Virus record (IMG/VR): IMGVR_UViG_3300046713_000128
Span: 1-38,298 of that record
DNA length: 38,298 nt
Strand: one strand, 5' to 3'
DNA from: a virus
Each line of letters starts with the position of its first letter. Positions within the stretch are counted from its first letter, which is position 1. The notes under the pieces are model-generated. The model was not told where the DNA came from. It was given only the letters and a program-made list of their open reading frames with translations, and ran no database searches. A program made the position numbers and the translations under genes. This document shows positions 7,627 through 38,290 of this stretch, piece by piece.

Positions 7627-7703
7627 CTATCGCATGGCCTGCCCCTCTGTGGTCTACCCGCAACGCCGTGCAATTCCTCACGGGCTGGGTGGGCAATCAA
7701 TGA
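7623..7703 (+). CDS. Tiny protein, 26 aa (possible leader)
   Basis: GTG 7623 has GGAAGGAG nine bases upstream, an excellent ribosome binding site, and its TGA overlaps the ATG at 7700 (ATGA). The peptide is Trp-rich (AWPAPLWSTRN, then TGWVG). The strong ribosome binding site makes it a probable translated leader for the following initiator-like protein, or a real microprotein. Confidence 0.5.
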   Translation: MTIAWPAPLWSTRNAVQFLTGWVGNQ

Positions 7704-8476
7704 GCTACGAAGCCGTCCGCTGGGCGCTGTACGACGCGCCGATGCTGCTGACGGCCGCAGGCAAGCCGGACACGGCTGCGCGGTTCGTGCTGCTCGCCCG
7801 CGCCGAGCGAGCCGACAAGCACGGCCGCAACACCTACGCCGGGCCGGCCGACCTGATGAGGACCACCGGCTACGACGAGCGGACCATCCAGCGCGCTGAC
7901 CGCAGGCTGGAAGACGCCGGGCTACTCGTGCGAGAGGGCTTCTCGCACGTCGGCACCGTGCGGTGGCGCGTCGACATGTCGCTCAAGCAGCCCGCTGTGG
8001 AGCCCGTCGTCGATGCCCGGATCGAGAAGCGGCGCAAGGCGGACGCGGCTCGGCAGCAGCGCCTCCGGGAGCGCCGAAAGGCCGAATCCTCGGCGCCCGA
8101 AAGCGGCCAGCCCATCGAACCTGATGTATCGAACAAGGTCACCGTCACGCATTCAGAATCCGTGACGTCACGCATTTCAAATCCGGACGTCACGGATTCT
8201 GTGTCCGGATGTCACGGACGCAGCGCCCCCCAAACCACCCTTAGAACCACCCATAGAACCGCCCTGGGAACCGCCCCTGGGGGCGCGCCGCCCCCAGACC
8301 CCCGACGACCCCACTCGCCTTCGGCTCCTGGGACCGGCGAGCAGAAGTCACCCAACGGACCGCTCACCCCAGCCCAAGACCAACAGAGTGAGTCACTCCC
8401 GCACGCGAACGCGCGAGGCCCGGACGCCGGGCAGGCGGGCTCGGTCGTCGATTTCTTCACCCGGGAGGCGATGTGA
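7700..8476 (+). CDS. Winged-helix protein, probable replication initiator carrying origin iterons
   Basis: A 258-residue protein from ATG 7700. The N-terminal 90 residues are a helix-turn-helix of the kind found in phage and plasmid replication proteins: LLARAERADKHGRNTY, then LMRTTGYDERTIQRADRRLE and GLLV before a wing. Residues about 110-135 are a highly basic helix. The rest is low-complexity Ser/Thr/Pro-rich linker, and the DNA encoding it contains iterons, tandem repeats and a hairpin (8144-8297). An initiator whose gene contains its own origin is the known arrangement of lambda O. No polymerase or helicase loader is visible, so replication would rely on host enzymes. A purely regulatory role is the alternative. 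Confidence 0.65.
   Translation: MSYEAVRWALYDAPMLLTAAGKPDTAARFVLLARAERADKHGRNTYAGPADLMRTTGYDERTIQRADRRLEDAGLLVREGFSHVGTVRWRVDMSLKQPAVEPVVDARIEKRRKADAARQQRLRERRKAESSAPESGQPIEPDVSNKVTVTHSESVTSRISNPDVTDSVSGCHGRSAPQTTLRTTHRTALGTAPGGAPPPDPRRPHSPSAPGTGEQKSPNGPLTPAQDQQSESLPHANARGPDAGQAGSVVDFFTREAM
8144..8220 (+). repeat. Four phased iterons (origin candidate)
   Basis: GTCACGCATT at 8144 and 8167, GTCACGGATT at 8189 and GTCACGGACG at 8211 recur at 23, 22 and 22 bp, about two helical turns. Dyads centred on GACGTC (8164-8169, 8186-8191) and GATGTC (8208-8213) are flanked by inverted arms close to AATCCGTGAC / GTCACGGATT. The array lies inside the winged-helix gene. This is what an initiator-binding origin looks like. 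Confidence 0.75.
8233..8281 (+). repeat. 12-bp tandem repeat, four copies, beside the iterons
   Basis: AACCACCCTTAG (8233-8244), AACCACCCATAG (8245-8256), AACCGCCCTGGG (8257-8268) and AACCGCCCCTGGG (8269-8281) run head to tail. The first two copies are relatively AT-rich for this genome. They could be a second binding array or an unwinding element. The period is a multiple of three, so coding repetition is a competing explanation. Confidence 0.65.
8277..8297. other. Perfect 9-bp hairpin at end of origin candidate
   Basis: CTGGGGGCG at 8277-8285 pairs perfectly with CGCCCCCAG at 8289-8297, leaving a CGC loop. It abuts the tandem repeats, inside the coding sequence of the initiator-like protein. 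It could mark a primase or nickase site, or attenuate transcription. Confidence 0.55.
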
Positions 8477-11702: not shown

Positions 11703-11777
11703 AGCGCTGTGGAGCAGTGGTAGCTCGGCGGGCTCATAACCCGTAGGTCGCGCGTTCGAATCGCGCCAGCGCAACCA
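11703..11777 (+). tRNA. tRNA-fMet (initiator type), anticodon CAT
   Basis: A complete 75-base cloverleaf with encoded CCA. The acceptor AGCGCTG (11703-11709) pairs with CAGCGCA (11767-11773) except A1:A72. The D stem is GAGC/GCTC. The anticodon stem GCGGG/CCCGT holds loop CTCATAA, with CAT at 11735-11737. The T arm is GCGCG/CGCGC with loop TTCGAAT. Three initiator hallmarks are present: an unpaired 1:72 position, three consecutive G:C pairs beside the anticodon loop (GGG/CCC), and A11:T24. An elongator tRNA-Met would lack these. It lies between early and packaging genes, next to an HNH gene. Confidence 0.93.
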
Positions 11778-12913: not shown

Positions 12914-13155
12914 TGTGGCCGTGGCTGGTGGACCCGATCACTGTCGCGCGCGGGGATTCCGACCCAGCTGAGCCGCTGGGATTGTCGCAGGCGCAGCGCG
13001 CGCAAAGCGACGCCTCGCAGCGCTGGCTGACTCCGGAGGCCACCGCCTGCCCGCGTTGCCGAGCGATTGCTGGGCATGCGCCGACATGCATCACGAAGGT
13101 CGCAATCGACGTTGAGTGGTGGCCTGGTTCGACCGGTGAACTGACGGCCAGCTGA
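12913..13155 (+). CDS. Hypothetical protein between terminase subunits, 80 aa
   Basis: ATG 12913 overlaps the small terminase stop by one base (TGATG) and its own stop overlaps the large terminase ATG the same way. It holds CPRC and one more Cys (APTCITK) and ends in WWPGSTGE. The tight coupling with both terminase genes suggests a packaging accessory role, which is inference only. Confidence 0.6.
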   Translation: MWPWLVDPITVARGDSDPAEPLGLSQAQRAQSDASQRWLTPEATACPRCRAIAGHAPTCITKVAIDVEWWPGSTGELTAS

Positions 13156-14759
13156 TGCCGTGGCGCGGTCCGTCCGAGCCCGGCGAGTTCCCGACCCTCG
13201 GGTACGACGTCGGCGAGTGGATCGAGCAGCACCTCGTCCTGGCCGACGGCTACCGGATGGGCGAGCCGTACAAGCTCACCGACGAGATGTGGACGTTCCT
13301 GGTCCACTACTACCGGCTCTACCCGCACGCGGCCCCCTGGCCGGCCCCGGACAGCCTGCGCTACACCGGCGGGCAGCTGCGCCGGTCGCAGAAGTGGGGC
13401 AAGGACCCGTTCGCTGCGGCGATGATCGCGGCCGAGGCGCTGGGCCCGACCCGCCATGACGGGTGGACCGCCGACGGGGAGCCGGTGGGGGCGCCGTACC
13501 CGTCGCCGTTGATCGTCTGCCTCGGCACCTCGGAGGAGCAGACCGCGAACACCTGGCGCCCGTTGCTGGGGATGCTGCGCGGTGGGCCGCTGGTGAACGA
13601 GCCCGGCATGGACATCGGTGAGACCCGGGTCATCCTGCCAAGCGGCGGGAAGATCGAGCCGGCGACCACGTCGGCCCGGGCCCGGCTGGGTGCCCCGATG
13701 ACGTTCGTGACGATCACCGAGACGCACCTGTTCACGCTGCAGGGCGGTCATCGCAAGGTGTGCGGCGCCGTCAAGCGCAACGTGGCCGGCATGGACGGCC
13801 GCTGGCTGGAGATGACCAACGCCTGGGATCCCTCGGAGGGCTCCGAGGCTCAGGTGACCGGCGACAACCCGGACGAGCGGACGTACGTCGACACGATCGA
13901 GCCGCATCGGGTCGAGGACCTGGGCGACGACGAGGCGCTCTACGCCGAGCTGCTGCGTCAGTACGGCGACAGCGCCCGCGAGCGCGGCGGCTGGGTCAAC
14001 ATCCGTGGCCGCATGTTCGGCGAGGCGCGGTCGAAGAAGCACATGGAGGCCGACCGGCGCCGCTTCTTCCTGAACGAGATCGTCGTGGGTGAGTCCGTGT
14101 TCGTCGACCCGATCGCCTGGGATGCGGCGGCCGGCGACGGCGAGACCCTGGCGCCCGGCGAGCGCATCACGCTCGGCTTCGACGGCTCGAAGTTCCGCGA
14201 CGCGACCGCGTTGATCGCCTCGCGGATGTCGGACGGCAAGCTGTTCACGCTGCGGGTCTGGGAGCGGCCCAAGGATGCCGCGCAGTGGAAGGTCCCGTCC
14301 GCCGAGGTCGACCAGGTCGTCGGGCAGACGTTCGATGCGTACGGCGTCGTGCTGATGTTCGCCGACCCGTACCGGTGGCAGGACTACCTCGACACCTGGG
14401 CCGGCAAGTGGCCCAAGCAGGTCGTGGAGTTCCCCACGAACGTCGAGCAGCGCATGGACCGGGCGATCGAGCGGTTCACGACTGCGTTCGCCGCCGGCGA
14501 CATCGCCCACGACGGCAACGAGACGCTGACGCAGCACTGCAAGAACGCCGTGCTGGTCAAGGGCTCGCGCAAGAAGCCGCGGCCCGGCGAGGACGAGAGC
14601 ATCGCGCAGTACCACATGAAGATGGCCAAGCGCGGCGACGGCCAGCTGATCGACGCCTCGGTCGCCGCGGTGCTCGCCTACGCGGCCCGCGGGCAGGCCA
14701 TCGAGGACGGCGCCCTGATCCCCGAAGAGACGCAGCCGTTTTTCGCGTCCTGGCGATAG
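13155..14759 (+). CDS. terL: Terminase large subunit (ATPase-nuclease)
   Basis: A 534-residue protein that pumps DNA into the prohead and cuts it. The ATPase part has a Walker A variant RRSQKWGKD (76-84) and Walker B with catalytic Glu189 in FVTITETH. A coupling-type stretch follows. The nuclease part has GFDGSKFRDA (Asp343), FADPYRW (Asp404) and a late DASVAAVLA, the three acidic positions of the RNase H-like fold. The length is normal for phage large terminases. The architecture is the actinophage P27/HK97-like type. Strong neighbours (HNH, small terminase, portal) confirm the call. Confidence 0.95.
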   Translation: MPWRGPSEPGEFPTLGYDVGEWIEQHLVLADGYRMGEPYKLTDEMWTFLVHYYRLYPHAAPWPAPDSLRYTGGQLRRSQKWGKDPFAAAMIAAEALGPTRHDGWTADGEPVGAPYPSPLIVCLGTSEEQTANTWRPLLGMLRGGPLVNEPGMDIGETRVILPSGGKIEPATTSARARLGAPMTFVTITETHLFTLQGGHRKVCGAVKRNVAGMDGRWLEMTNAWDPSEGSEAQVTGDNPDERTYVDTIEPHRVEDLGDDEALYAELLRQYGDSARERGGWVNIRGRMFGEARSKKHMEADRRRFFLNEIVVGESVFVDPIAWDAAAGDGETLAPGERITLGFDGSKFRDATALIASRMSDGKLFTLRVWERPKDAAQWKVPSAEVDQVVGQTFDAYGVVLMFADPYRWQDYLDTWAGKWPKQVVEFPTNVEQRMDRAIERFTTAFAAGDIAHDGNETLTQHCKNAVLVKGSRKKPRPGEDESIAQYHMKMAKRGDGQLIDASVAAVLAYAARGQAIEDGALIPEETQPFFASWR

Positions 14760-14769
14760 GAGGAAATCC

Positions 14770-15045
14770 ATGGCCGTCCTATCGACGAGTCCGGACGCCC
14801 GGCTGCAGTGGCGCGAGATCGGCCGCCTGGTCACGGCGGGTCTGGGCTGGCTGCTCTTCGCGGCCGGCTGGCTGGTCGCGAAGACGCTGCGGGCCGCCGC
14901 CACCGCGATCGGTGCCGTCCTGTTCGCCGCCGGCTGGCTCGCCTCGGCCGCGGCCTGGCCGGCGCTGTGCTGGTGCGGCCGCGCCGTGAGTCTGGGCTGG
15001 CAGGAAGGCCGCAAGCCGATCGGCGGTCGGCGTGGGCCTTCTTGA
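14770..15045 (+). CDS. Small membrane protein between terminase and portal, 91 aa
   Basis: ATG 14770 is preceded by TAGGAGGAAA, one of the best ribosome binding sites in the window. Residues about 20-70 are hydrophobic, with a duplicated LFAAGWL motif that suggests two membrane helices arising by repetition. A basic C-terminus follows. The gene overlaps the portal start by 14 bp, so it is co-translated with it. No family is recognised; a holin-like protein or an antiholin would be unusual here. Confidence 0.7.
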   Translation: MAVLSTSPDARLQWREIGRLVTAGLGWLLFAAGWLVAKTLRAAATAIGAVLFAAGWLASAAAWPALCWCGRAVSLGWQEGRKPIGGRRGPS

Positions 15046-16426
15046 GCGCATCGCCGCTGCGGGTAAGGGCGAGGAGCGCTTCAGCGCCGACCAGTGGCTG
15101 ACGCAGTTCCTGGCGCCATCGCAGTTCAACTACAACGGCTCGAACTACTCGTACGGCGGCCTGCGTACGACCATGTCCGGGCAGAAGATCCAGCAGGTCG
15201 CCGCCACCCTGCCCGGCTACGCAGCCGCCCTGCGGGCGTGCCCGCCAGCGTTCGCCGCGCAGATGGTGCGGGCGCTGACGCTGTCGCAGATGCGGTTCAC
15301 CTGGCGTAACCTGCCGAGCCACCCGTCGACGCCGCGGCGCACATTCGGGAACCGGGAGTTGTCGCTGCTGGAACGGCCGTGGCCGAAGGCGACCACCTCG
15401 GACCTGGTGGCGACGATGGAATGGCATGCCGGGCTGACCGGCAACGCGTTCGTCGTCCGGCAGCGTGACCGGCTGCGGGTGCTGCGACCGGACTGGTGCG
15501 GGCTGATCTTCGGGTCACAGCAGGACCCGGACGAGATCGCCGCGACCGCCCTGGACGGCGAGCTGCTCGGGCTGATCTACCAGAACGGCGGCATCGGCTC
15601 CGGCCGCGGTCAGATGCAGACGTTGCTGCCGGACGAGTTCGCGCACTGGTCGCCGATCCCGGACCCGGAGTGCCCCGGCATGGGCCAGTCGTGGATCACC
15701 GCCGCGCTGGCAGACATCCAGGGCGACCGGGCGGCGACGCAGCACAAGCTGCAGTTCTTCACCAACGGCGCGACGCCGAACATGGTGGTCACCGGCATTC
15801 CGGCAGCGACCAAGGAGATCTTCAGCGACATCGTCGACGCGATGGAGGAGAAGCACGCCGGCGTCGCCAACGCGTACAAGACCCTCTACCTGGCGCTCGG
15901 CGCCGACGCCAAGGTGGTCGGCTCCGACCTGAAGCAGCTCGACTTCAAGGCCACCCAGGGCGCCGGCGAGACGCGCATCGCGATGCTGGGCCGCGTCCCG
16001 GCGCCGCTGCTGGGCATCTCCGAGGGTCTGGCCGGGTCGTCGCTGAACGCGGGCAACTTCGGCATGGCCCGGCGCATCTTCGCCGACAGCTGGATCTACC
16101 CGTCGATGCAGGACCTCTCGGCGTCGCTGGAGTCCATTCTCACGCGGCCCACCGACCGCAGCGGCTACCCGGACTCCGAGCTGTGGTTCGACACCACCGA
16201 TATGCCGATCCTGCGCGAGGACGCCAAGGACGCGGCCGCGATCACGCAGACGCAGGCCACGACGATCGGCCAGCTCGTGCGCGAGGGCTTCACCGCCGAG
16301 TCGGCGAAGACGGCCGTCATCGGCCAGGACATGAGCCAGCTCGTCCACTCGGGCCTTGTCTCCGTCCAGCTGCAGGTCCCCGGCTCCACCCCACCCGCAA
16401 CCACCCCGGCAGGAGGGGCGAAGTGA
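15032..16426 (+). CDS. Portal protein (HK97 type)
   Basis: A 464-residue protein from GTG 15032, coupled to the upstream membrane protein gene. It forms the dodecameric ring through which DNA enters and to which the tail attaches. The start GLLERI, the crown/stem region with ATMEWHAGLTGNAFVVRQR, LQFFTNGATPNMVV, and ILGRVP-like LGRVPAPLLGIS followed by GSSLNAGNFGMARR are typical of HK97-family portals. The Pro/Thr-rich C-terminal 20 residues are probably disordered. Confidence 0.93.
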   Translation: MGLLERIAAAGKGEERFSADQWLTQFLAPSQFNYNGSNYSYGGLRTTMSGQKIQQVAATLPGYAAALRACPPAFAAQMVRALTLSQMRFTWRNLPSHPSTPRRTFGNRELSLLERPWPKATTSDLVATMEWHAGLTGNAFVVRQRDRLRVLRPDWCGLIFGSQQDPDEIAATALDGELLGLIYQNGGIGSGRGQMQTLLPDEFAHWSPIPDPECPGMGQSWITAALADIQGDRAATQHKLQFFTNGATPNMVVTGIPAATKEIFSDIVDAMEEKHAGVANAYKTLYLALGADAKVVGSDLKQLDFKATQGAGETRIAMLGRVPAPLLGISEGLAGSSLNAGNFGMARRIFADSWIYPSMQDLSASLESILTRPTDRSGYPDSELWFDTTDMPILREDAKDAAAITQTQATTIGQLVREGFTAESAKTAVIGQDMSQLVHSGLVSVQLQVPGSTPPATTPAGGAK

Positions 16427-17214
16427 CCACAGCCCAGACGGCGCCGCCGATCCTTCTTCGCGCGGTCGAGTTCCGCGCCACCGACGACGACGCCGGCGAC
16501 GGCCGCACGCTCGAGGGCTACGGCGCAGTGTTCAACTCGCCGACGAGCATCCGCGGTTGGGAGGGCGACTTCCTCGAGGAGATCGCCCCCGGCGCGTTCC
16601 GCAAGACACTGCGCGAGCGGACCCCGGTGCTCCAGTTCGACCACGGCCGCGACCAGCGCACCGGGTCGGTGCCGATCGGCTCGATCGAGGAGTTGAAGGA
16701 GGACACCGAGGGCCTGTTCGTCCGCGCGCGGCTGTTCGACAACCCGGTGGTCGAGCCGATCCGGCAGGCCATCGAGGGCAAGTCCATCACCGGCATGTCG
16801 TTCCGGTTCGCCGTCGCTGAGGAGCGCTGGGTCGACAAGGACGGCAAGAAGGTCAAGGACGAGGAGCTGTCCGAGCTGCTGTGGCGTCCGGGTGACCGTG
16901 GGCCGCTGAAGCGGACCATCCTGCGCGTCGACCCGCTGTACGAGCTCGGCCCGGTCGTCTTCCCGGCCTACGACAACACCTCCGTCGGTGTGCGCTCGCT
17001 GCTGGCGCAGCTGACCCCCGACGAGCACCGCCAGATGCTCCGCGAGCTCGCCGAAGAGCTTCGCACGCACGGCGGCATAGACCTCACCGAGGACGGCGCG
17101 CGGAGCGCCGCCGAGGGCGAGCAAGGCACGCAGCCAGGGAACGGCGAGCGGCCACCCACTTCAGTTCGTTCCCGCGTCGACCACGACGCCCTCCGTATGA
17201 GAGGCATCCTGTGA
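16423..17214 (+). CDS. HK97-type prohead protease
   Basis: A 263-residue protein from GTG 16423, with AGGAGGGG upstream. Family S78/U35-type protease: TLEGYGAVFN at 29-38, catalytic-type His74 in LQFDHGRD, and a Ser in GKSITGMSFRF (probably Ser126), followed by ELGPVVFPAYDNTSV. It should trim the N-terminal delta domain of the capsid protein during maturation. The C-terminal 60 residues are an acidic tail that may act in scaffolding. Lies between portal and capsid genes, as expected. Confidence 0.93.
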   Translation: MTTAQTAPPILLRAVEFRATDDDAGDGRTLEGYGAVFNSPTSIRGWEGDFLEEIAPGAFRKTLRERTPVLQFDHGRDQRTGSVPIGSIEELKEDTEGLFVRARLFDNPVVEPIRQAIEGKSITGMSFRFAVAEERWVDKDGKKVKDEELSELLWRPGDRGPLKRTILRVDPLYELGPVVFPAYDNTSVGVRSLLAQLTPDEHRQMLRELAEELRTHGGIDLTEDGARSAAEGEQGTQPGNGERPPTSVRSRVDHDALRMRGIL

Positions 17215-18797
17215 ACCACAGCCGCAAGCCGAAGCTGCTCGGCTACCGCAAGAACGGCGCCCCCGTCTGGCTGGCCCAGGGCGGCGCCCCCGATCTCGCC
17301 GAGCAGATCACCCGCTCGCTCGAGGGCAAGGACGTCGCAGACCTCAAGGCCTCCGCCGTTCCCGACGAGCTGCGGGGCAAGACGCCCGACGAGCTCGTCC
17401 AGTACATCGAGGTCCTGGACGCGCACCTGCGTTCCATGCATCAGGACGAGGACACCGGCGAGCTGCGCGAGAAGTCGCCGGCGGAGCAGAAGGCGTTCGC
17501 CTACGGCCTGGAGCTGCGCGACATCGCCACCAAGCGCATCGAAGAGCACCGGGCCGTGCAGGAGATCTTCAGCCGCAAGCCGAAGGCCGTGCAGCGGGCG
17601 CTCGCCAACATCAAGACCGGCAGCGACGACCCGTACGGCGACGTGCGCCGGCTGACGACGGCCGAGGCCCGTGACGGCGCGCTGCGCCGGCTGGACAGCC
17701 GCGACGCGGGCTCGATGCTGGAGGACGACCAGCGCGAGCACGTCGAGCGGCAGATCCGCAAGGACACCACGATCGCCCGCCGGATCCTCGTCACCGAGAA
17801 CGAGCACTACCGCGAGGCGTGGATGAAGCTGGTCACCCAGCCGCACCCGTTCCTCGACGACGACGAGCGCAAGGCCGTCCAGGCCTGGCAGGAATACCGG
17901 GCGATGGCCGACTTCACGTCGGCAGCGGGTGGCTTCGGCATCCCGGTGTTCATCGACCCGTCGATCATCATGACGGCGCAGGGCAGCGGGAACCCGTTCC
18001 TGTCGATCGCCCGCCAGGTCACCGTCAACACGAACCGGTGGAAGGGCGTCAGCTCGGCCGGTGTGACCTGGGCGTTCCAGACGGAGGCCGCGGCAGCCAC
18101 GGACAACTCGCCGACCCTGGCGCAGCCGACGGTGGACGTGCACATGGCGCGCGGCTTCATCCCGTTCTCGATCGAGGTCGGGATGGACTACCCGGCCTTC
18201 GCGTCGGAGATGTCCGACCTGCTCGCCGCGGGCTACGACGAGCTGCTCGTGGACAAATTCACCCGCGGCTCCGGTTCGGGTGAGCCGTTCGGCATCCTGA
18301 CCGCCCTGTCGGCGAACGCGTCGGTCCGGGTGCGGGTGGCCACGGCCGGCGCGATCAACTCGCAGGACCCGTACAACGTGTGGAAGGTGCTGCCGCAGCG
18401 GTTCCGCCGCAACGCGGCCTGGCTGATGTCGGTCGGCGTGAACACGGCGATCCGGCAGCTGGGCGCGGCGAACGTGTTCCACGGCTACACGGTCAACCTG
18501 CCCGAGGAGTGGGCCGGCCAGCTGATGAACAAGGCCGTGTACGAGGACCCGTACATGCCCGACACCACCACGACCACATCGAGCACGGTCGGTGTGGCCG
18601 TCGTCGGCGACTTCTCGAACTTCGTGGTCGCCCGCAACGGCGGCATGGAGGTCGAGCTGGTGCCGCAGCTGTTCCAGCAGGTGACCGCGGGCTCCGGCCC
18701 GGCGGTGCCGACCGGGCAGCGCGGATGGTTCGCGTACAGCCGCATCGGATCGAACTCGGTGAACGACCTCGCGTTCCGGCTGCTGACCAACACGTAG
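17211..18797 (+). CDS. Major capsid protein (HK97 fold) with long N-terminal scaffold domain
   Basis: A 528-residue protein from GTG 17211 (GTGA overlap). The first 225 or so residues are charged and helical, acting as a delta/scaffold domain that the upstream protease would remove. The mature part begins near AMADFTSAAGGFGIPVFID, the usual start of HK97-fold capsids, and continues with FLSIARQVTV, GVTWAFQTEAAA and IEVGMDYPAF. The C-terminal A-domain region contains YTVNLPE and VVGDFSNFVV. It ends ahead of a strong hairpin. Confidence 0.95.
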   Translation: MNHSRKPKLLGYRKNGAPVWLAQGGAPDLAEQITRSLEGKDVADLKASAVPDELRGKTPDELVQYIEVLDAHLRSMHQDEDTGELREKSPAEQKAFAYGLELRDIATKRIEEHRAVQEIFSRKPKAVQRALANIKTGSDDPYGDVRRLTTAEARDGALRRLDSRDAGSMLEDDQREHVERQIRKDTTIARRILVTENEHYREAWMKLVTQPHPFLDDDERKAVQAWQEYRAMADFTSAAGGFGIPVFIDPSIIMTAQGSGNPFLSIARQVTVNTNRWKGVSSAGVTWAFQTEAAAATDNSPTLAQPTVDVHMARGFIPFSIEVGMDYPAFASEMSDLLAAGYDELLVDKFTRGSGSGEPFGILTALSANASVRVRVATAGAINSQDPYNVWKVLPQRFRRNAAWLMSVGVNTAIRQLGAANVFHGYTVNLPEEWAGQLMNKAVYEDPYMPDTTTTTSSTVGVAVVGDFSNFVVARNGGMEVELVPQLFQQVTAGSGPAVPTGQRGWFAYSRIGSNSVNDLAFRLLTNT

Positions 18798-19388: not shown

Positions 19389-19473
19389 CCCAATCGTCTC
19401 CGGTCGGCCGCTCGTGGATGGTCGTCCGGCCGGAGGCTCAACCATCCACAACCATCCACGTGAAAGGTCCGAA

Positions 19474-20253
19474 ATGACGCAGGAACCCGACGTCCCCGAC
19501 GTCGACCCGACCGGCACGGTCGCGCTGGCCTACGTGCACTCCGAGCGGGTCTCGTACTCGTGGCACCACTCGATCGTCGAGCTGATGGGCTTCGACTTCG
19601 CAAATGCCGGGCGGGTGGTCCGCGGCGGCTTCATCTCGATGCACTGCGGCACCGACGGCCTGGTCGACGCCCGCAACAAGGCCGTCGCGACGTTCCTGGC
19701 CGAGCGGACCGCAGAGTGGCTGTTCTGGATCGACACGGACATGGGGTTCGCCCCGGACGCGCTGGAGCGGCTGCTGGCCGCCGCCGACGCCGACCACCGG
19801 CCGATCGTCGGCGCCCTGGCGTTCTCGCAGCGCCAGACCGAATCTGACGGCCGCGGTGGCTGGCGCTGCACGGCCACGCCGACGGTCTTCGACTGGGAAG
19901 AGGTCGACGGCAAGACCGGCTTCTCGGTGCGCTGGGACTACGCGCGAAACACCGTCACCCGGGTGGCCGGCACCGGCTCGGCGTGCCTCCTGATCCACCG
20001 CACGGTCCTCGAGAAGATCGCCGCGGAGCACGGCCCCATCTGGTACAACCGGATCCCTAACCCGTCGCTCGGGCAGATGACCTCCGAGGACCTGTCGTTC
20101 TGCATGCGGGCGGGGGCGCTCGGCTTTCCCCTGCACGTTCACACCGGTGTGGAGGCGACGCACCACAAGCCGGTGTGGCTGGCTGAGGACGACTACCTGC
20201 GCCAGCGTGCCATCGACGCCGCCCTGAAGGACCGCGCCGAGGTGACGTCGTGA
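19474..20253 (+). CDS. Glycosyltransferase, GT-A fold
   Basis: A 259-residue protein; ATG 19474 with AAAGG upstream is preferred over the in-frame GTG in the repeat region. FLAERTAEWLFWIDTDMGF contains the DTD that matches the DxD metal-binding motif of GT-A transferases. GFISMHCGTDGLVDARNKAV precedes it, as in phage and bacterial GT2-like enzymes. A later SEDLSFCMRA and a HHKPVWL motif resemble the acceptor end. It would transfer a sugar from a nucleotide donor, probably to a virion protein, since it lies in the structural region. Confidence 0.82.
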   Translation: MTQEPDVPDVDPTGTVALAYVHSERVSYSWHHSIVELMGFDFANAGRVVRGGFISMHCGTDGLVDARNKAVATFLAERTAEWLFWIDTDMGFAPDALERLLAAADADHRPIVGALAFSQRQTESDGRGGWRCTATPTVFDWEEVDGKTGFSVRWDYARNTVTRVAGTGSACLLIHRTVLEKIAAEHGPIWYNRIPNPSLGQMTSEDLSFCMRAGALGFPLHVHTGVEATHHKPVWLAEDDYLRQRAIDAALKDRAEVTS

Positions 20254-21149
20254 AGATCGCCCTCACCGGAGCGGCCGGATACCTCGGCACCCACCTCACC
20301 CGCACCCTGATCGAGGCGGGCCACTCGGTTAACCGCTACGACCGCCGCCCCGGCCCGCTGCTGTACGACCTGTTCGACCTGTGCGAGCGAGCCTCGTTCC
20401 GGTCGCGACTGGCAACTACTCGCCCTGATCTGGTCGTGCACATGGCGGCCCGGACGGGCCGCCTGTTCGGCGAGGACGACCGGCAGGACTCGGTCCGATC
20501 GAACGCCGAGGCCACCGTCAACGTCGCCCAGGCGTGCAGCGAGGTCGGCATCCGCATGGTCTACGCCAGCTCGTCGGAGATCTACGGCGACACCGGCCAG
20601 GTGTGCACCGAGGACGGTCCGTACGCGCTGCCGCACAACCTCTACGGCGTCAGCAAGCGGTGGGGCGAGGAAGCCTGCCAGCTCTACAACCCGGACGGCC
20701 TGACGATCTGGCGCATCTCGATGCCGTACGGGCCCGGCGCGAAGGTCGGCTACCGCGGCCTGAACGCGCTGCACGCCTTCCTGTTCGCGGCGCACAACCG
20801 GTTGCCCATCACCGTGCACCGTGGCTCGTCGCGGTCCTGGACGTATGTCGGCGACACGATGGCCGCGATGCTGGCCACGCTCGAGCGGCCGGGCGTCTGG
20901 AACATCGGTGGCGACCACGACCACCGTTCGATGCTCGAGGTGGCCGACCTGGCGTGCGCGATCGCCGACGCACCGCCGTCGCTCATCACGGAGGTCGAGC
21001 CGCCGACCGCGCAGACGCTGGTCAAGCGCCTGTCGTCGGCAAAGCTCGAGGCGATCGGGTGGGCGCCGCAGACCTCGCTCGCGGACGGCATGAAGCTCAC
21101 CTACGAGTGGGTGGCGCGCCACGACGCCGACGGGCGGCTGGTCGCATGA
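20250..21149 (+). CDS. NAD-dependent sugar epimerase / dehydratase (extended SDR)
   Basis: A 299-residue protein from GTG 20250. The Rossmann fingerprint GAAGYLG is at residues 7-13, HMAARTG forms the second strand motif, the Ser-rich YASSSEIYG precedes the active-site YGVSK (Tyr-x3-Lys), and RISMPYGPG resembles the substrate loop. These are the marks of extended short-chain dehydrogenases that convert UDP-, GDP- or dTDP-sugars. It overlaps both glycosyltransferases by 4 bp, so the cassette probably makes and transfers a special sugar. Confidence 0.88.
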   Translation: MKIALTGAAGYLGTHLTRTLIEAGHSVNRYDRRPGPLLYDLFDLCERASFRSRLATTRPDLVVHMAARTGRLFGEDDRQDSVRSNAEATVNVAQACSEVGIRMVYASSSEIYGDTGQVCTEDGPYALPHNLYGVSKRWGEEACQLYNPDGLTIWRISMPYGPGAKVGYRGLNALHAFLFAAHNRLPITVHRGSSRSWTYVGDTMAAMLATLERPGVWNIGGDHDHRSMLEVADLACAIADAPPSLITEVEPPTAQTLVKRLSSAKLEAIGWAPQTSLADGMKLTYEWVARHDADGRLVA

Positions 21150-27042: not shown

Positions 27043-30000
27043 GTGGCTCTACGCACCGTCGGCGTGAGGTTGACCGCGGACGTCACCAACTACGTCGCCG
27101 GCATGAAGCGCGCCGGGGAGTCGACGAAGTCGTTCTCCCAGGGCCTCAGCCAGCAGGCGGCCGGCGGTCACCTCGACAAGATCGCCGACCGCGCCGGGAT
27201 CATGGGCCTGGCCATCGGTGCCGGGGTCGGTGTCGCGGTCAAGGCGTTCATGGACTTCGACAAGCAGATGAGCTCGGTCAGGGCCGCGACGCACGCCACC
27301 GCCGGCGAGATGGAGCAGCTGCGCAAGGCCGCGATCAAGGCCGGCGCCGACACCCAGTACTCGGCGACCGAGGCGGCCAAGGGGATCGAGGAGCTGGCCA
27401 AGGCGGGCGTCTCCACCAGCGACATCCTCGGCGGCGGACTCAAGGGCGCCCTGGACCTCGCGGCCGCCGGCCAGATGGACGTCGGCGCGGCCGCTGAGAC
27501 CGCGGCCAGCGCGATGACCCAGTTCAAGCTGTCCGGCCGCGACGTCCCACACGTCGCCGACCTGCTCGCCGCCGCGGCAGGCAAGGCGCAGGGCGAGGTC
27601 TCCGACATGGGCGCCGCCCTGAACCAGGCGGGCCTCATCGCCTCCGGCACGGGCCTGTCGATCGAGGAGACGACCGGCACCCTGGCCGCGTTCGCCTCGG
27701 CTGGCCTGATCGGCTCCGACGCCGGCACCAGCTTCAAGACGATGCTGCAGTCGATCCAGGCCCCGAGCGGCAAGACCCGGGACCTGATGGAGGACCTGGG
27801 CGTCAGCGCCTACGACGCCGCCGGCCAGTTCGTCGGCATCGCGAACTTCGCGCAGAACCTGAAGGACAAGCTCAGCGTCCTGACCCCGGAGCTGCGGGCG
27901 AACGCGATGGCGCAGATCTTCGGCTCGGATGCGACCCGGGCCGCGAATGTGCTGTACGAGCAGGGCGCGGCCGGCATTCAGTCCTGGATCGAGAAGACGA
28001 ACGACGCTGGGTATGCGGCCGAGACGGCAGCGGTCAAGACCGACAACCTGGCCGGCGACATGGAGCGCCTGAAGGGCTCGCTCGACACGCTGCTGATCCA
28101 GTCCGGCGGCGGCGCGAACGGTGGCCTGCGGCTGCTGACGCAGTCCCTGGAGTCGATGGTCGACCAGTTCGGCAAGCTGCCGTCCGGGGTCACCGCGACG
28201 GTGACGGTCATGGGTGGCCTGACCGCTGCGGTACTGCTGGGCGGTGCCGCCTGGGTGAAGGCGCGCGGTGCGATCGCCTCCACGGTCGCCGAGCTGAACG
28301 CGGTCGGCCCGGCGGGCGCTCGCGCGGCGACCGGCCTGCAGTCGGCCACGAAGTGGGCGGGCCGGGCTGCGGTCGCCTTCGTCGGCCTGGAGGTGGCCGG
28401 CGCCGTCTTCGATTCGATGGGCAACTCTGCGGTCAACGTCAACAAACTCACCGCCGCGCTCCAGGAGTACGCGACCACGGGCAAGATGACGCAGGGCCTA
28501 ACCGACATTTTCGGCCAGGACCTGGAGTCCCTCGGCAAGAACGCCAAGTACGCCTCCGACGCGACGCACGGCTTCACGGGCATGCTGGCGGACCTTTCGT
28601 CATACGTTCCAGGGCTCGACACGTTGAGCGAGTGGACCTTCGGCACCTCGTTCAGCGACTCGACCGAGAAGATGAAGGCCCTGGACGAGAGCTTCAGCGC
28701 CTTCATCGCGACGCAGAAGGACGCCAAGAAGGCCAGCGAGCTGTGGAACGAGATCCTGACCAAGTCGGGCCTCGACACCGAGCAGCTGGCCGAGCTGCTG
28801 CCCGGCGCGTGGAAGGGCATGCAGGATCTCCAGGCCGCTGCCCACAGCGGCGCCGGGGCCCAGGGCGAGCTGAGCGAGCAGACCGCCGCGACGACCGCGC
28901 AGATGGAGAAGCAGAAGGAGCAGGCGGAGGAGCTCAAGAAGGCCTTCGACGACCTGTTCGGCCGCTACATGAGCGCCGACGAGGCGGCCATGGAGTACGA
29001 GAAGTCCCTGGTCTCGACGAACAAAGAGCTGGCCAGCGGCGCCAAGACCCTCGATGTCCACTCCGAGGCCGGGCAGAAGAACCGGACCGCGACGCTAGAC
29101 CTGATCAAGGCGGTCAAGGAGCAGCGCGACGCCAACATCAACAACGGCATGGCTGTCGACGAGGCGGACAAGAAGTACCGCTCGCAAATCACCACGCTGG
29201 GCAAGACGATGCTCCACCTCGGCTACACCAAGACCGAGGTCGAGAAGCTGATCGGCAAGTACCGCGCCATCCCGAGCAGGGTCGGCACGTCGATCGAGAC
29301 CCCAGGCCTTCCGAAGGCATCGGGCAGCATCAAGGACTACAAGGGCCAGCTCGACAGCCTGGCCCGGCAGATCAAGACGCACGTCTCGGTCGAAGGCGAC
29401 GCTGCGGCGTACCGGAAGCTCGAGAAGCTCCTCATCGCCCAGCGGGTGGCGATGAATCCCGAGCTCAGCCTGTCCGGTGCCGCCTCCGCTTTCCGCAAGC
29501 AGGAGGCCAAGGCCTTTCATGAGGGCGGCTGGACCGGTCCGGGCGGGAAGTACGAACCTGCGGGCGTGGTGCACGCCGACGAGTTCGTGGTCAACAAGGC
29601 GGCTCGGCGCAAGATCGAGGCCACCAATCCGGGCCTGCTCGACGAGATGAACGCGACCGGTCAGGTCCGCGGGTACGCCGGCGGCGGACTGGTCATGCCG
29701 TTCCCGGTGGACGCGTCACGCACGAAGATCCCCGCCATGATGCCGACGGCCAGCTTCGGTGACTGGCCGTCCAGCCCGGGTGCGCAGCGGGGCGACTCCG
29801 GCATCTGGCGCAAGATCGTCGCGATGGTGCGGGCCAGCGGCATCCCGTACGACTTCGGCAACGGCTACCGCCCCGGCGACCCGCTGTGGCACGGCTCCGG
29901 CCGCGCCGTCGACTTCATGGGCTACAACCAGGACCGGCTCGCGCAATTCTTCCAGGCCCGACAGGGCAGCGTCCTGGAGCTGATCCACCGCACGAAGAGC

Positions 30001-30327
30001 CGGGACTACGGCATCACCCGCGGCCACTACAACGCGATGCCGCACCAGTGGCCGCTGCACAAAAACCACCTGCACGTCGCGATGGAGCACGGCGGCACGA
30101 TCCGCGAGCCGGTGTACGGCGTCGGCGTCTCCGGCAACACCTATTCGTTCGGCGAGAACTGGAAGCCGGAGCGGGTGACGCCCGGCGCCTGGTCGAGCTC
30201 GAGCGCGGGTGGTGGCGGCGGCACCATCAACGTCACCGTCCAGGCCGGCTACGTCGTCAGCGAGCGTGACCTGGAAAACAAGATCACGCAGACGATCGAC
30301 ACGCTGCGGGCGAAGGGGCGGGTCTGA
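27043..30327 (+). CDS. Tape measure protein with C-terminal M15-like peptidase domain
   Basis: A 1094-residue protein starting at GTG 27043. It sets tail length; about 1.5 angstroms per residue suggests a tail near 160 nm. The first 400 residues are typical (DFDKQMSSVRAATHATAGEM, YSATEAAKGIEELAKAG). A hydrophobic stretch is at about 385-410, and further helical repeats run to about 860. Near residues 945-1015 lies WHGSGRAVDFMG (His950, Asp957) and HLHVAM (His1009, His1011), the zinc ligands of M15-like peptidases. This would cut cell-wall peptides during DNA entry. The end is a Gly/Ser-rich linker and a helix. Confidence 0.92.
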   Translation: MALRTVGVRLTADVTNYVAGMKRAGESTKSFSQGLSQQAAGGHLDKIADRAGIMGLAIGAGVGVAVKAFMDFDKQMSSVRAATHATAGEMEQLRKAAIKAGADTQYSATEAAKGIEELAKAGVSTSDILGGGLKGALDLAAAGQMDVGAAAETAASAMTQFKLSGRDVPHVADLLAAAAGKAQGEVSDMGAALNQAGLIASGTGLSIEETTGTLAAFASAGLIGSDAGTSFKTMLQSIQAPSGKTRDLMEDLGVSAYDAAGQFVGIANFAQNLKDKLSVLTPELRANAMAQIFGSDATRAANVLYEQGAAGIQSWIEKTNDAGYAAETAAVKTDNLAGDMERLKGSLDTLLIQSGGGANGGLRLLTQSLESMVDQFGKLPSGVTATVTVMGGLTAAVLLGGAAWVKARGAIASTVAELNAVGPAGARAATGLQSATKWAGRAAVAFVGLEVAGAVFDSMGNSAVNVNKLTAALQEYATTGKMTQGLTDIFGQDLESLGKNAKYASDATHGFTGMLADLSSYVPGLDTLSEWTFGTSFSDSTEKMKALDESFSAFIATQKDAKKASELWNEILTKSGLDTEQLAELLPGAWKGMQDLQAAAHSGAGAQGELSEQTAATTAQMEKQKEQAEELKKAFDDLFGRYMSADEAAMEYEKSLVSTNKELASGAKTLDVHSEAGQKNRTATLDLIKAVKEQRDANINNGMAVDEADKKYRSQITTLGKTMLHLGYTKTEVEKLIGKYRAIPSRVGTSIETPGLPKASGSIKDYKGQLDSLARQIKTHVSVEGDAAAYRKLEKLLIAQRVAMNPELSLSGAASAFRKQEAKAFHEGGWTGPGGKYEPAGVVHADEFVVNKAARRKIEATNPGLLDEMNATGQVRGYAGGGLVMPFPVDASRTKIPAMMPTASFGDWPSSPGAQRGDSGIWRKIVAMVRASGIPYDFGNGYRPGDPLWHGSGRAVDFMGYNQDRLAQFFQARQGSVLELIHRTKSRDYGITRGHYNAMPHQWPLHKNHLHVAMEHGGTIREPVYGVGVSGNTYSFGENWKPERVTPGAWSSSSAGGGGGTINVTVQAGYVVSERDLENKITQTIDTLRAKGRV

Positions 30328-34046: not shown

Positions 34047-34877
34047 ATGGCCGCCTGGACCCTGGTTCCCTGCCTGGTGTCGCTCCGCGAAGAGTTCGAC
34101 CAGGTCAGCCCGAACCGCGACAAGGGCGCCGACGGCTCGATCGGCGACAGCGCGCACACCAGCTCGTCCGATCACACCCCGGACGAGGACTCGGACGTTC
34201 TGCGCGACCACGACGCGGACAGCAAGAACGAGGTACACGCCCTCGATATCGACAGCTCGGGGCCGTGGCCCGGCAGCGTGACCGACTTCAGCGCGTTCAA
34301 CCTCATGGTCCGGGAGCTCGTCGCCCGCGAGAAGGCGGAGTACGAGAGCCCCACCATGGTCGGGCGGCTGAAGTACGTGATCTGGAACCGGCAGATCGCA
34401 TCGCGATCCTGGGGCTGGACGTGGCGCCCGTACACCCTGGCCGACCCGCACACCAACCACGCGCACTTCTCCGCTCGCTACGAGAGCGGCCCGGAAGCCG
34501 ACACCCGCCCGTGGGGCGTAGCCGAGGAGGACGACATGGCACTCAGCACCGAGGACAAGGCCTGGATCAAGGGCCTCCTTACCACCGACAAGGACGTCGC
34601 GGCGCAGCTGCAGGCGCGGCCGTGGCAGTACGGTGGCCGCGGCATCCCGGCGAACCTGACCACCCTGGGCGTCCTCGCCACCGCCTACGCCAATGCGGCC
34701 AAGGCGGCCGGCCAGGACGTCGACGAGTCCGCGATCGTCGCCGGCGTCCTCGAGGGCCTGAGCGGCAGCACCGAGTCCGACGCCGAGCTCGCCGCCGCAC
34801 TGCAGGCCGCGCTCGGCGACCGGGCCACCGCGATCGGCCGCATCCTCGCCACGGCGCCGCAGTCCCCGGTCGCCTAA
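34047..34877 (+). CDS. Endolysin with M15-like peptidase domain
   Basis: A 276-residue protein with GAGGAG eight bases before ATG 34047. The N-terminal 150 residues hold SSDHTPD and EVHALDID (candidate His and Asp67) and NHAHFS (His138, His140), the zinc site pattern of M15-like D,D- or L,D-peptidases used as actinophage endolysins. A linker at about 155-165 leads to a helical C-terminal domain with LTTLGVLATAYANAAKA, perhaps for targeting or oligomer formation. It would digest peptidoglycan cross-links after holins open the membrane. There is no signal peptide. Confidence 0.82.
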   Translation: MAAWTLVPCLVSLREEFDQVSPNRDKGADGSIGDSAHTSSSDHTPDEDSDVLRDHDADSKNEVHALDIDSSGPWPGSVTDFSAFNLMVRELVAREKAEYESPTMVGRLKYVIWNRQIASRSWGWTWRPYTLADPHTNHAHFSARYESGPEADTRPWGVAEEDDMALSTEDKAWIKGLLTTDKDVAAQLQARPWQYGGRGIPANLTTLGVLATAYANAAKAAGQDVDESAIVAGVLEGLSGSTESDAELAAALQAALGDRATAIGRILATAPQSPVA

Positions 34878-36049: not shown

Positions 36050-36421
36050 ATGCAGGTCTACGGGAAGTCCATCGTCGCCGCGCTGTACGCGGTCGCCGTC
36101 GTCGCCGTGGCGCAGCTCTCCGGCGATCACCACGTCGACGCGTCCGAGGGCGTCGCCATCGGCATCGCCCTGTGCACCGCGCTGCTGACCTACATCGTTC
36201 CGCTGGTGCCGTCGGCGCCCTGGACCAAGACGGCGATCGGCGCGATCCTCGCCGGGCTCCAGGTGGCCACCACGGTCATCGTCGGCGGAGTCGACAGCAA
36301 CGACTGGCTCCTCATCGCTTTCGCCGTGGCCAGCGCGCTCGGCATCCAGCTCGCCCCGGCGGTGTCGCCCCGGACGGCGACCGCGGTCGGCTTCGGCTCG
36401 GACGCCCCGGCGCGGTTCTGA
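36050..36421 (+). CDS. Membrane protein, holin candidate (about 4 helices)
   Basis: A 123-residue protein from ATG 36050, with CGGAG seven bases upstream. Hydrophobic segments lie near residues 6-24, 35-55, 62-80 and 83-102. The pattern, length and location after the endolysin suit an actinophage holin (similar phage proteins begin MxxYGKxxVA). It is the last gene before the terminator. Confidence 0.7.
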   Translation: MQVYGKSIVAALYAVAVVAVAQLSGDHHVDASEGVAIGIALCTALLTYIVPLVPSAPWTKTAIGAILAGLQVATTVIVGGVDSNDWLLIAFAVASALGIQLAPAVSPRTATAVGFGSDAPARF

Positions 36422-36451
36422 GCGCTCCACCACCCGACGCACCAAACAGCG

Positions 36452-36486
36452 CCGCCCCTCGACCTTCGGGTCGGGGGGCGGATTTT
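36452..36486 (+). terminator. 13-bp UUCG-capped terminator, both strands
   Basis: CCGCCCCTCGACC (36452-36464) pairs with GGTCGGGGGGCGG (36469-36481), with one wobble pair, around a TTCG tetraloop, followed by ATTTT. It lies between the end of the plus-strand late genes (36421) and the end of the minus-strand translocase (36500), so it can end transcription from both sides. Confidence 0.92.
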
Positions 36487-36499
36487 GCTGTGTCCGGGG

Positions 36500-38230
36500 T
36501 CAGACCTGCGCGCAGCTCTCCGCCCACGCGTCCAGGTCGGCACGCGCGTACAGGTCCGCGTTCCCGCGCTTCCCGCGGGCCGGTGGCACCCGGCCGACGT
36601 TGCGCTGCAGCCGCTTCTTCGTCGCCTCGTACGACGGCCACGGCAGCACGCCGGCGTCGATGGCGTCCCGCAAGGTCATCATGTCCCCGTCCCCGGGGAC
36701 ATTGCTGCTCAGCGCGCTATCAGGGCCCTCCGGCGGCTTTGCCAGGGCCCTGGCCTGTGCCGTGTTGAGGTAGGCCACCTGGACCTCGACGGCCTGACCG
36801 CCGATGACGACCTGCCAGCGGCCCAGCGTCCGGCTCGCCCTCGGCATGGAGGCCTCCGGCACCAGCATCTTCCAGTTGTTCGCCGTGTACCTCGCCAGGC
36901 AGCGGATGCCGAAGTTCTCCCGCGCCTCGGGGCCGCCGATCGCCCGCGCGGTGAGCATCTGCGCGATCGCCAGGACGTTGACCTTCGCCGAGCGGCCCAT
37001 GAAGAGCAGGTCGGCCAGCGCCGCGACGGCGGGGGAGCGCTTCGGCTCACCCTTCTCGCGGGTCTCCGCCCAGTAGTTGGTGAGCTGCCCGATCGTCGCG
37101 TTGAGCTCTTCGCAGATCAGCAGGTGCCGGGGGCCCGGATCCCAGTCCTCCGCCTCGTGCAGCGCGTCGTCGTTGCGCTGGTCGGCCATCGCGGACAGCC
37201 GCAGCAGCGCGTCGTGCATCTGGGCCGGCTTCGTGCAGTAGTCCACCCCGGCCTGCCCGAGCGCCCACCGGTGTGAGCCCTTGCGGTCCAGGATGACCAC
37301 CCGGCCGCCCCGGCGCAGCACCTGCACGGCCAGCAGCTGGGCCAGCACGCTCTTGCCGGCGCCCGACCCGGCGCTGACCGCGATGTGCGGGGAGTCGTCG
37401 CGCAGCGAGATGACGACCGCCTGGTCGCCGGCACCCTGGCCGACGTAAAACTCCCACTCCTTCAGGCTTGCCATGTGCTCGAGCACCTGGACGTGACCGA
37501 CCTGCGCCGGCGGCCGCTTGCGGACCGTCCACCGGGCACGGACCCGGCGCCCGACCTGATACCAGGACTCGACCAGGTCACCGGCCGGGATCTTGCTGGA
37601 GATGATGGAGGACACGAGTTGTCGCTGCTCCTTCGTCAGATACGGGGTCTCTACGGTCAGCTCGATGCGCGGGCCCAGCTGCTCGCCCGGCCGCCGGAAC
37701 ACCTCGAGCCGCTGCGTCGCCGGGCGGGCGGCGCGCTGGATCGCCCACACGCCGCGCTGTAGCTGGTCGGGCAGCCAGCGCAGCACCGGCTCGACATGCT
37801 CGCCGTACCGAAGCCTCGCCGCCTGCTCGAACGGTGACAGCGGCTTGGCCAGCCGCGGCGTCAGGTTGCCGAGCGACGGGTCGACGTACAGCCGCACGGC
37901 GCCCTCGTCCACGCCCAGCGCGGGACTCATCGCCGCCAGGGTCGGCGCGACGTACTCGGCGAGGAACCGGCGCCGCACCACAATCCGGCGGCCGCGCCAC
38001 GCCACGACGGCCACCGTGGCGCCGGCGGCCACCGCGGCCGGCACGGGGAACTCGGCGGTGAGCAGCGCCGCCGCCGGCGCTCCGAGTCGCCACGCCTGCC
38101 GCTGCCATCCGGCGAGCCGGGCCGGGCCGGGCCGCAGGTACGGGTGGCCGGGCTGCCCTTTCAAGGGTCGCCCGGCCACGTACCGGTACGCCACGCGCGG
38201 CGCGGTGTTGCGCGGCTGGCCGTCCGTCAT
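36500..38230 (-). CDS. FtsK/TraB-type DNA translocase of conjugative-element type
   Basis: A 576-residue protein on the minus strand, ATG at 38230 with GAGGAG eight bases upstream. A hydrophobic stretch at about 50-77 is a probable membrane segment. Walker A is AVSAGSGAGKS (Gly288-Ser294), and HLLICEELNATI (369-380) gives a Walker B with two Glu, like the FtsK/SpoIIIE proteins of actinobacterial conjugative elements. A later ENFGIRCLARYT fits the motor core. The last 60 residues (LRDAIDAGVLPWPSYEATKK onward) look like a winged helix, which in TraB/FtsK binds guide sequences. It would pump double-stranded DNA between cells or in septa. It is not a usual phage packaging motor, as a separate terminase is present. 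Confidence 0.9.
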   Translation of the reverse strand: MTDGQPRNTAPRVAYRYVAGRPLKGQPGHPYLRPGPARLAGWQRQAWRLGAPAAALLTAEFPVPAAVAAGATVAVVAWRGRRIVVRRRFLAEYVAPTLAAMSPALGVDEGAVRLYVDPSLGNLTPRLAKPLSPFEQAARLRYGEHVEPVLRWLPDQLQRGVWAIQRAARPATQRLEVFRRPGEQLGPRIELTVETPYLTKEQRQLVSSIISSKIPAGDLVESWYQVGRRVRARWTVRKRPPAQVGHVQVLEHMASLKEWEFYVGQGAGDQAVVISLRDDSPHIAVSAGSGAGKSVLAQLLAVQVLRRGGRVVILDRKGSHRWALGQAGVDYCTKPAQMHDALLRLSAMADQRNDDALHEAEDWDPGPRHLLICEELNATIGQLTNYWAETREKGEPKRSPAVAALADLLFMGRSAKVNVLAIAQMLTARAIGGPEARENFGIRCLARYTANNWKMLVPEASMPRASRTLGRWQVVIGGQAVEVQVAYLNTAQARALAKPPEGPDSALSSNVPGDGDMMTLRDAIDAGVLPWPSYEATKKRLQRNVGRVPPARGKRGNADLYARADLDAWAESCAQV

Positions 38231-38257: not shown

Positions 38258-38290
38258 GGGCGCGACCGTGCTTTCATCTCGGTCGCGCCC
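38258..38290. repeat. 11-bp perfect inverted repeat upstream of translocase
   Basis: GGGCGCGACCG (38258-38268) pairs perfectly with CGGTCGCGCCC (38280-38290) around 11 bases. It lies 28 bases upstream of the translocase ATG. It may be the operator of this gene or the terminator of an upstream gene out of view. Confidence 0.65.

Follow-up and report, generated by a model that had tools for sequence, protein, structure and literature searches.

A distinct DNA translocase family shared by temperate phages and virion-less integrative elements of Micromonosporaceae

The window studied here, the whole 38,298-bp IMG/VR contig IMGVR_UViG_3300046713_000128 from a soil actinobacterial virus, is probably the greater part of a temperate Micromonosporaceae siphovirus with a module for dsDNA transfer; this judgement covers the virus and the explanation of the module jointly. 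The translocase gene of this module (TRA; 36500..38230, minus strand) belongs to a distinct family that resides in integrated prophages, is common to virion-less integrative elements and is found on unrelated virion lineages. This is what is new; elements with a dual virion-plus-conjugation lifestyle are already known from pZL12. The closest kin of TRA are encoded by integrative elements and plasmids with a transfer-like module. Among solved structures, the fold nearest to it is that of a conjugation coupling protein.

Of the genes characteristic of a temperate siphovirus (Caudoviricetes), the window holds TerL, portal, tape measure and holin; an integrase and att sites are seen in relatives. 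The sequence-only reading had placed the translocase beside a complete virion module, and these genes bear it out, with the capsid assigned by position. All of them lie on the plus strand. The large terminase subunit (TerL; 13155..14759) was found by PHROG profile search and is a separate packaging motor, which supports the earlier view that TRA is a translocase distinct from the one that fills the capsid. It is followed by the portal (15032..16426; phrog_12, E = 2e-31) and, judging by its place after the portal and by sequence reading, a probable major capsid protein with an N-terminal extension (17211..18797). The tape measure protein (27043..30327) was recognized by sequence reading and comparison with relatives. 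A probable lysin gene (34047..34877), whose function is assigned by position, is conserved near the holin/translocase junction in many related loci, and a holin-like gene (36050..36421) matches phrog_565 and Pfam Phage_holin_9, the latter at an E-value of 5e-5 that falls below the Pfam cutoff. Upstream, a replication initiator (7634..8476, plus strand; phrog_1032) shares its PHROG with the initiator of one virion-less element, and the PHROG search also recovered exonuclease VIII-like and RuvC-like genes. A tRNA-Met (CAT) gene (11703-11777) follows the early genes and precedes the terminase. Glycosyltransferase-like and NAD-dependent epimerase-like genes (19414-21149) lie amid the structural module and could possibly modify the virion or the host surface.

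The translocase adjoins the lysis genes and is transcribed toward them. A terminator-like hairpin (36446..36491, plus strand; core stem 36452-36481, then TTTTG; −41.5 kcal/mol, z = −4.0) lies between the late genes, at their holin end, and the convergent translocase. The record stops 68 bp upstream of the translocase start codon, so the context of the gene was taken from relatives. The record contains no integrase, excisionase or partner gene, and the integrase and Rep/Spd genes that the earlier reading proposed to look for on the right fall outside it. No terminal redundancy or overlap was detected in the 38,298-bp record, and circular permutation was rejected as its ends do not overlap. At the very end of the record, just upstream of the translocase, an 11-bp perfect inverted repeat (GGGCGCGACCG/CGGTCGCGCCC; 38258..38290) is possibly an operator, the terminator of a missing upstream gene, or a binding site.

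TRA is a real gene: an intact ORF of 576 residues with an ATG start, a GC3 of 0.93 and a ribosome-binding site (GAGGAG) ahead of the start codon. The conservation of its homologues (30 further sequences aligned), together with dN/dS values of 0.11-0.25 in close pairs, shows that it is not a chance ORF. We modeled the protein with AlphaFold2 from the 31-homologue alignment (pLDDT 77). At the N terminus, two overlapping hydropathy peaks of modest height (1.36-1.60; residues 49-67 and 59-77) coincide with the long helices predicted at residues 41-60 and 65-105. This hydrophobic stretch (38000..38086, minus strand; residues 49-77) is a probable membrane anchor, and the case for a membrane segment in the model is plausible, not strong.

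The central part of the protein is a motor domain of the FtsK/HerA superfamily (36731..37684, minus strand; residues 183-500), as seen from both Pfam and structure matches. Its Walker A motif, GSGAGKS (37349..37369, minus strand; residues 288-294), has Gly 290, Gly 292, Lys 293 and Ser 294 invariant across the 31 homologues, and the Walker B motif with its catalytic glutamate pair, LLICEELNAT (37094..37123, minus strand; residues 370-379), has Glu 374 and Glu 375 equally invariant. The P-loop motor, the two Walker motifs and the FtsK/HerA fold are the features by which the FtsK-HerA superfamily is recognized, and TRA has them all. Pfam DUF87/HerA matches the motor with an E-value of 6.6e-8, passing that model's cutoff, and phrog_1358 (FtsK/SpoIIIE-like) matches weakly. 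Pfam FtsK_SpoIIIE (PF01580) gave no match at E = 0.01, and the name ‘FtsK’ is therefore right for TRA at the superfamily level only. The best fold in the PDB is TcpA of plasmid pCW3 (Foldseek E = 4.5e-17), which superposes with a VIA Z-score of 27.3 and an rmsd of 2.7 over 249 residues. The FtsK motor comes second (Z = 25.2), followed by the T7SS ATPases EccC/EssC and by HerA.

The C-terminal domain (36503..36685, minus strand; residues 516-576) is predicted to be a MerR/excisionase-like winged helix. Modeled alone, the last 70 residues form a confident winged helix (pLDDT 85), whose best matches, tied between MerR regulators and excisionases, have low Z-scores of 5-6, as expected at such small size. 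Pfam HTH_17 also matches weakly, and no FtsK gamma-type domain appears among the structures listed. Since an N-terminal hydrophobic stretch, a motor and a C-terminal winged helix follow one another, the layout is that of single-protein DNA pumps, yet the family is not TraB. The transfer-enzyme layout first read from the sequence thus holds for the HerA/FtsK-superfamily motor and the winged helix, and plausibly for the membrane segment, but without the PF01580 domain. The more specific label, a TraB/pSAM2-type enzyme, is not supported, given the missing PF01580, the different type of winged helix and a search of the window that found no clt-like repeat cluster.

In four Micromonosporaceae chromosomes, TRA lies inside prophages of 43-46 kb bounded by direct repeats derived from the 3′ end of a tRNA. 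The prophages of A. italicus (45.9 kb), M. alfalfae (43.7 kb) and P. pyxinae (42.8 kb) have perfect tRNA repeats of 43, 46 and 25 bp, respectively, and that of A. aureus (44.2 kb) has a 31 bp repeat at 90% identity. These repeats place the translocase of the relatives within the phage element. They disfavor the alternative of two adjacent elements, one conjugative and the other a prophage, and a host gene or separate element fails to explain the relatives, where att repeats enclose TRA and virion genes alike. In M. alfalfae and A. italicus, at most about 2 kb separate the integrase from TRA. In the two tRNA-Ser prophages the integrase sits beside attR with TRA near attL, so that the two become neighbors across attP on the excised circle. 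The A. italicus prophage encodes a terminase, major head protein, integrase and portal, and the M. alfalfae prophage a terminase, major head protein, integrase and tape measure; their terminases and head proteins are of different families, with the same TRA. In M. alfalfae, TRA and the late genes share a strand, and the expression programme is therefore not uniform.

The family is widespread among related viruses. Scans of viral contigs yielded 13 further IMG/VR records with TRA, 12 at 65-77% identity and one at 34%. Of the 14 TRA-bearing records (the window included), 12 encode TerL of a single family and 9 a tyrosine-type integrase; a serine-type recombinase was also seen. The genome scan found 17 TRA loci, all in Micromonosporaceae, where 12 of 201 sampled genomes carry the gene. 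These hosts are filamentous.

A four-transmembrane partner (DUF2637 or a variant) is encoded directly upstream of TRA in most loci checked. By analogy, the partner gene of the window would normally be expected beyond the right end of the record. In some phages, a second type of protein, HTH plus multi-transmembrane (motif IWSGWVGLGGLTGFG.VHPLPGI; L002:8930-9724, L004:2863-3675, L009:8995-9762), replaces DUF2637 at this place. SpdB of pIJ101 was not accepted as a DUF2637 homologue (E = 0.008 against five sequences only).

TRA is 71-76% identical in integrative elements of 10-14 kb that lack the virion cassette. The element of M. veneta (L015/L024) spans 14.05 kb between 45-bp tRNA-Gly repeats. 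It encodes a tyrosine integrase, an HTH protein and a primase/polymerase-like protein besides TRA and a DUF2637-like membrane protein, and none of its scanned ORFs is a virion gene. That of Micromonospora parastrephiae (L022:7746-17784; 10.0 kb between 19-bp repeats) contains the partner–TRA pair, a primase-like AAA protein, an HTH protein and an integrase, and in addition a lone HK97-type major capsid gene (Pfam E = 3e-42); TerL (phrog_9) was not found in the M. parastrephiae genome. It may be satellite-like or a capsid-carrying conjugative element. Because of this capsid gene, not all of the ‘virion-less’ relatives need be conjugative elements, as some may be satellites or prophages in decay, and we softened the label AICE for the group as a whole. 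A further set of TRA loci, one with a serine recombinase, lies near rpsT or in other host genes, as identified by sequence reading. In Plantactinospora endophytica (L016:8160-20940), a virion-less element appears to have entered a 3-methyladenine DNA glycosylase-like gene; it encodes a serine recombinase and brings along a partial copy of the interrupted gene (88 bp repeat, 78%). The DUF2637–translocase pair recurs on the plasmids pPR2 and pFRL6, where the translocase is called ‘Tra protein’ and its motor is about 40% identical to TRA.

In the TRA tree, the virion-less elements are nested among the phage-bearing ones. At least three changes are forced, and two of these fall on fully supported branches. 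The tree accordingly requires several switches between virion-bearing and virion-less elements, without fixing their direction. TRA is far better conserved than the virion genes: phages that share 65-77% identity in TRA show 26-45% in their tape measures, and the portals and capsids of those phages were unrecognizable by tblastn in the loci compared, where the flanks limit the comparison. A tblastx synteny comparison of the window with its relatives was discarded as noise due to high G+C. As judged from the dN/dS values of close pairs, selection on TRA is purifying.

Among characterized systems, the TraB/Tra proteins of Streptomyces plasmids and AICEs (pIJ101, pSVH1 and pSAM2) have a plan like that of TRA: a membrane part, which in TRA is plausible, an FtsK-superfamily motor and a C-terminal winged helix, with small membrane partners encoded alongside. 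In TraB systems, a hexameric membrane pump of this superfamily can carry dsDNA from one mycelium into another, and small membrane partners assist its spread (PMC12857230, PMC5365140, PMC3583192). However, Tra of pIJ101 matches PF01580 (9e-10), the criterion for TraB/Tra of conjugative plasmids and AICEs (Ghinet 2011, PMC3218068), and has a MarR-type winged helix, whereas that of TRA is predicted to be of the MerR/excisionase type; hhalign aligns pIJ101 Tra with the TRA family in the motor only. TcpA of Clostridium perfringens pCW3 is the closest solved motor fold and an FtsK-resembling conjugation coupling ATPase, but it is 17% identical to TRA and works with a T4SS-like Tcp apparatus, of which none is seen here. 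An AICE comprises integrase, Rep and Tra between att sites and no virion module, and the window differs in having one and in carrying no integrase on its record. The small elements of M. veneta and M. parastrephiae share with TRA phages the translocase family, the kind of multi-transmembrane partner, a tyrosine integrase, an HTH protein and att repeats, but are 10-14 kb long and, unlike the window, lack terminase, portal and tail genes. The pRL2-11/‘Tra protein’ family of Streptomyces linear plasmids and Planobispora pPR2 has a motor about 40% identical to that of TRA, and pPR2 and pFRL6 resemble the TRA loci in their upstream DUF2637 partner, though they are plasmids and not phages. We found no functional study of the pRL2-11/‘Tra protein’ family and no experiments on any member of the TRA subfamily in the literature consulted.

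The Streptomyces plasmid-phage pZL12 (phage ZL12; GQ919031), as far as it is described where cited in PMC3583192, combines virion and conjugation lifestyles. It is like the window in having a virion module and a tra/transfer-like gene on one element, with conjugation by the window element being our inference. In contrast, pZL12 is an autonomous 90-kb plasmid with ParAB, and the window's relatives are integrated prophages of 43-46 kb. Its Tra was rejected as a TRA homologue (BLASTP E = 0.04; hhalign probability 0.9%). The actinophages Galactica, Hiyaa, Spocter and Keanu and Thermobifida phage P1312 also have annotated FtsK-like DNA translocases, as in the window phage, but these are matched by the pZL12 protein and not by that of the window, and so form another family.

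Short guide repeats (clt) bound by the winged helix had been proposed as a signature to look for. No clt-like cluster emerged, as no 8-mer occurs four times within 200 bp anywhere in the window, where the upstream flank of the translocase is off the record. Among relatives, a repeat cluster in L016 was rejected as clt as it is a coding repeat of DUF2637 (EPVKAQPVKAQPV). Iteron-like clusters of 4-5 palindromic repeats (CACCTGCAGGTG; CACACGTGTG) occur near replication genes in L018 plus flank (concatenate G018 41703-41855), in G020 near 45823 and in G023 (37525-37609), and in view of that location were not taken as clt.

On balance, TRA and its partner are best explained as a module for dsDNA transfer, itself transferable, that a temperate siphovirus carries, a reading we consider rather likely and one in which transfer is deduced from a module having the same kinds of parts as TraB systems. 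TRA would be a membrane-anchored, presumably hexameric translocase of FtsK/TcpA fold with its own DNA-binding winged helix and a putative recognition site, normally with a four-transmembrane partner directly ahead and an integrase close by. The winged helix would load the pump onto the element's DNA, either once the prophage has excised or directly from the lysogen. The membrane parts would position it at hyphal contacts or septa, and the pump would drive dsDNA into the neighboring compartment or mycelium, spreading the prophage without lysis.

An alternative role, which we regard as unlikely, is vertical maintenance or movement within one mycelium in place of transfer between strains, with TRA driving newly replicated prophage DNA across septa and into compartments or spores in the manner of SpoIIIE/FtsK. 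The FtsK motor is the second-best fold match and the hosts are filamentous. In known systems, intramycelial spread involves membrane partners of the Spd type (PMC12857230). Nevertheless, the spread of TRA to many lineages and to virion-less elements fits horizontal transfer at least equally well, and no partition genes are seen in the module.

It is improbable, in our estimate, that TRA is instead a factor of the phage life cycle or of host takeover, acting in ejection, segregation during lysis or superinfection exclusion, with the small elements being satellites or decayed prophages that retained it. PHROGs does class FtsK/SpoIIIE-like phage proteins as moron/host takeover, the lone HK97 capsid gene of the 10-kb M. 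parastrephiae element would suit such an origin, and unrelated FtsK-like translocases occur in other actinophages. Against this, the M. veneta element has an integrase, HTH protein, primase and DUF2637–TRA pair and no virion gene among its scanned ORFs, and plasmid kin with the same pair occur outside phages. That TRA is a mere passenger of an integration cassette, useless to the phage, would agree with its place at the integrase/lysis boundary, a usual cargo site, but is very improbable given purifying selection, with dN/dS of 0.11-0.25 in close pairs and catalytic residues intact in 31 of 31 homologues.

With the transfer module preferred, the virus lineage may have two ways to spread, one in particles and one by DNA passing directly from cell to cell. 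A broader proposal, which we put forward tentatively and with real doubt, is that in Micromonosporaceae the integrase, multi-transmembrane partner and TRA form the stable, conjugative core of a class of integrative elements. The virion module would then be exchangeable cargo, with unrelated coats gained and lost several times and the elements traveling in virions as well as through dsDNA transfer between mycelia. If TRA does transfer DNA, one shared, conserved transfer module would tie phages to conjugative elements. Complete integrated prophages with TRA occur in culturable strains, such as Micromonospora alfalfae MED01 and Actinoplanes italicus DSM 43146, where this can be tested. Surveys of actinomycete conjugative elements based on PF01580 would miss the TRA family, and prophage surveys would count TRA-bearing elements as ordinary phages. 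Gene flow by these elements may thus be undercounted.
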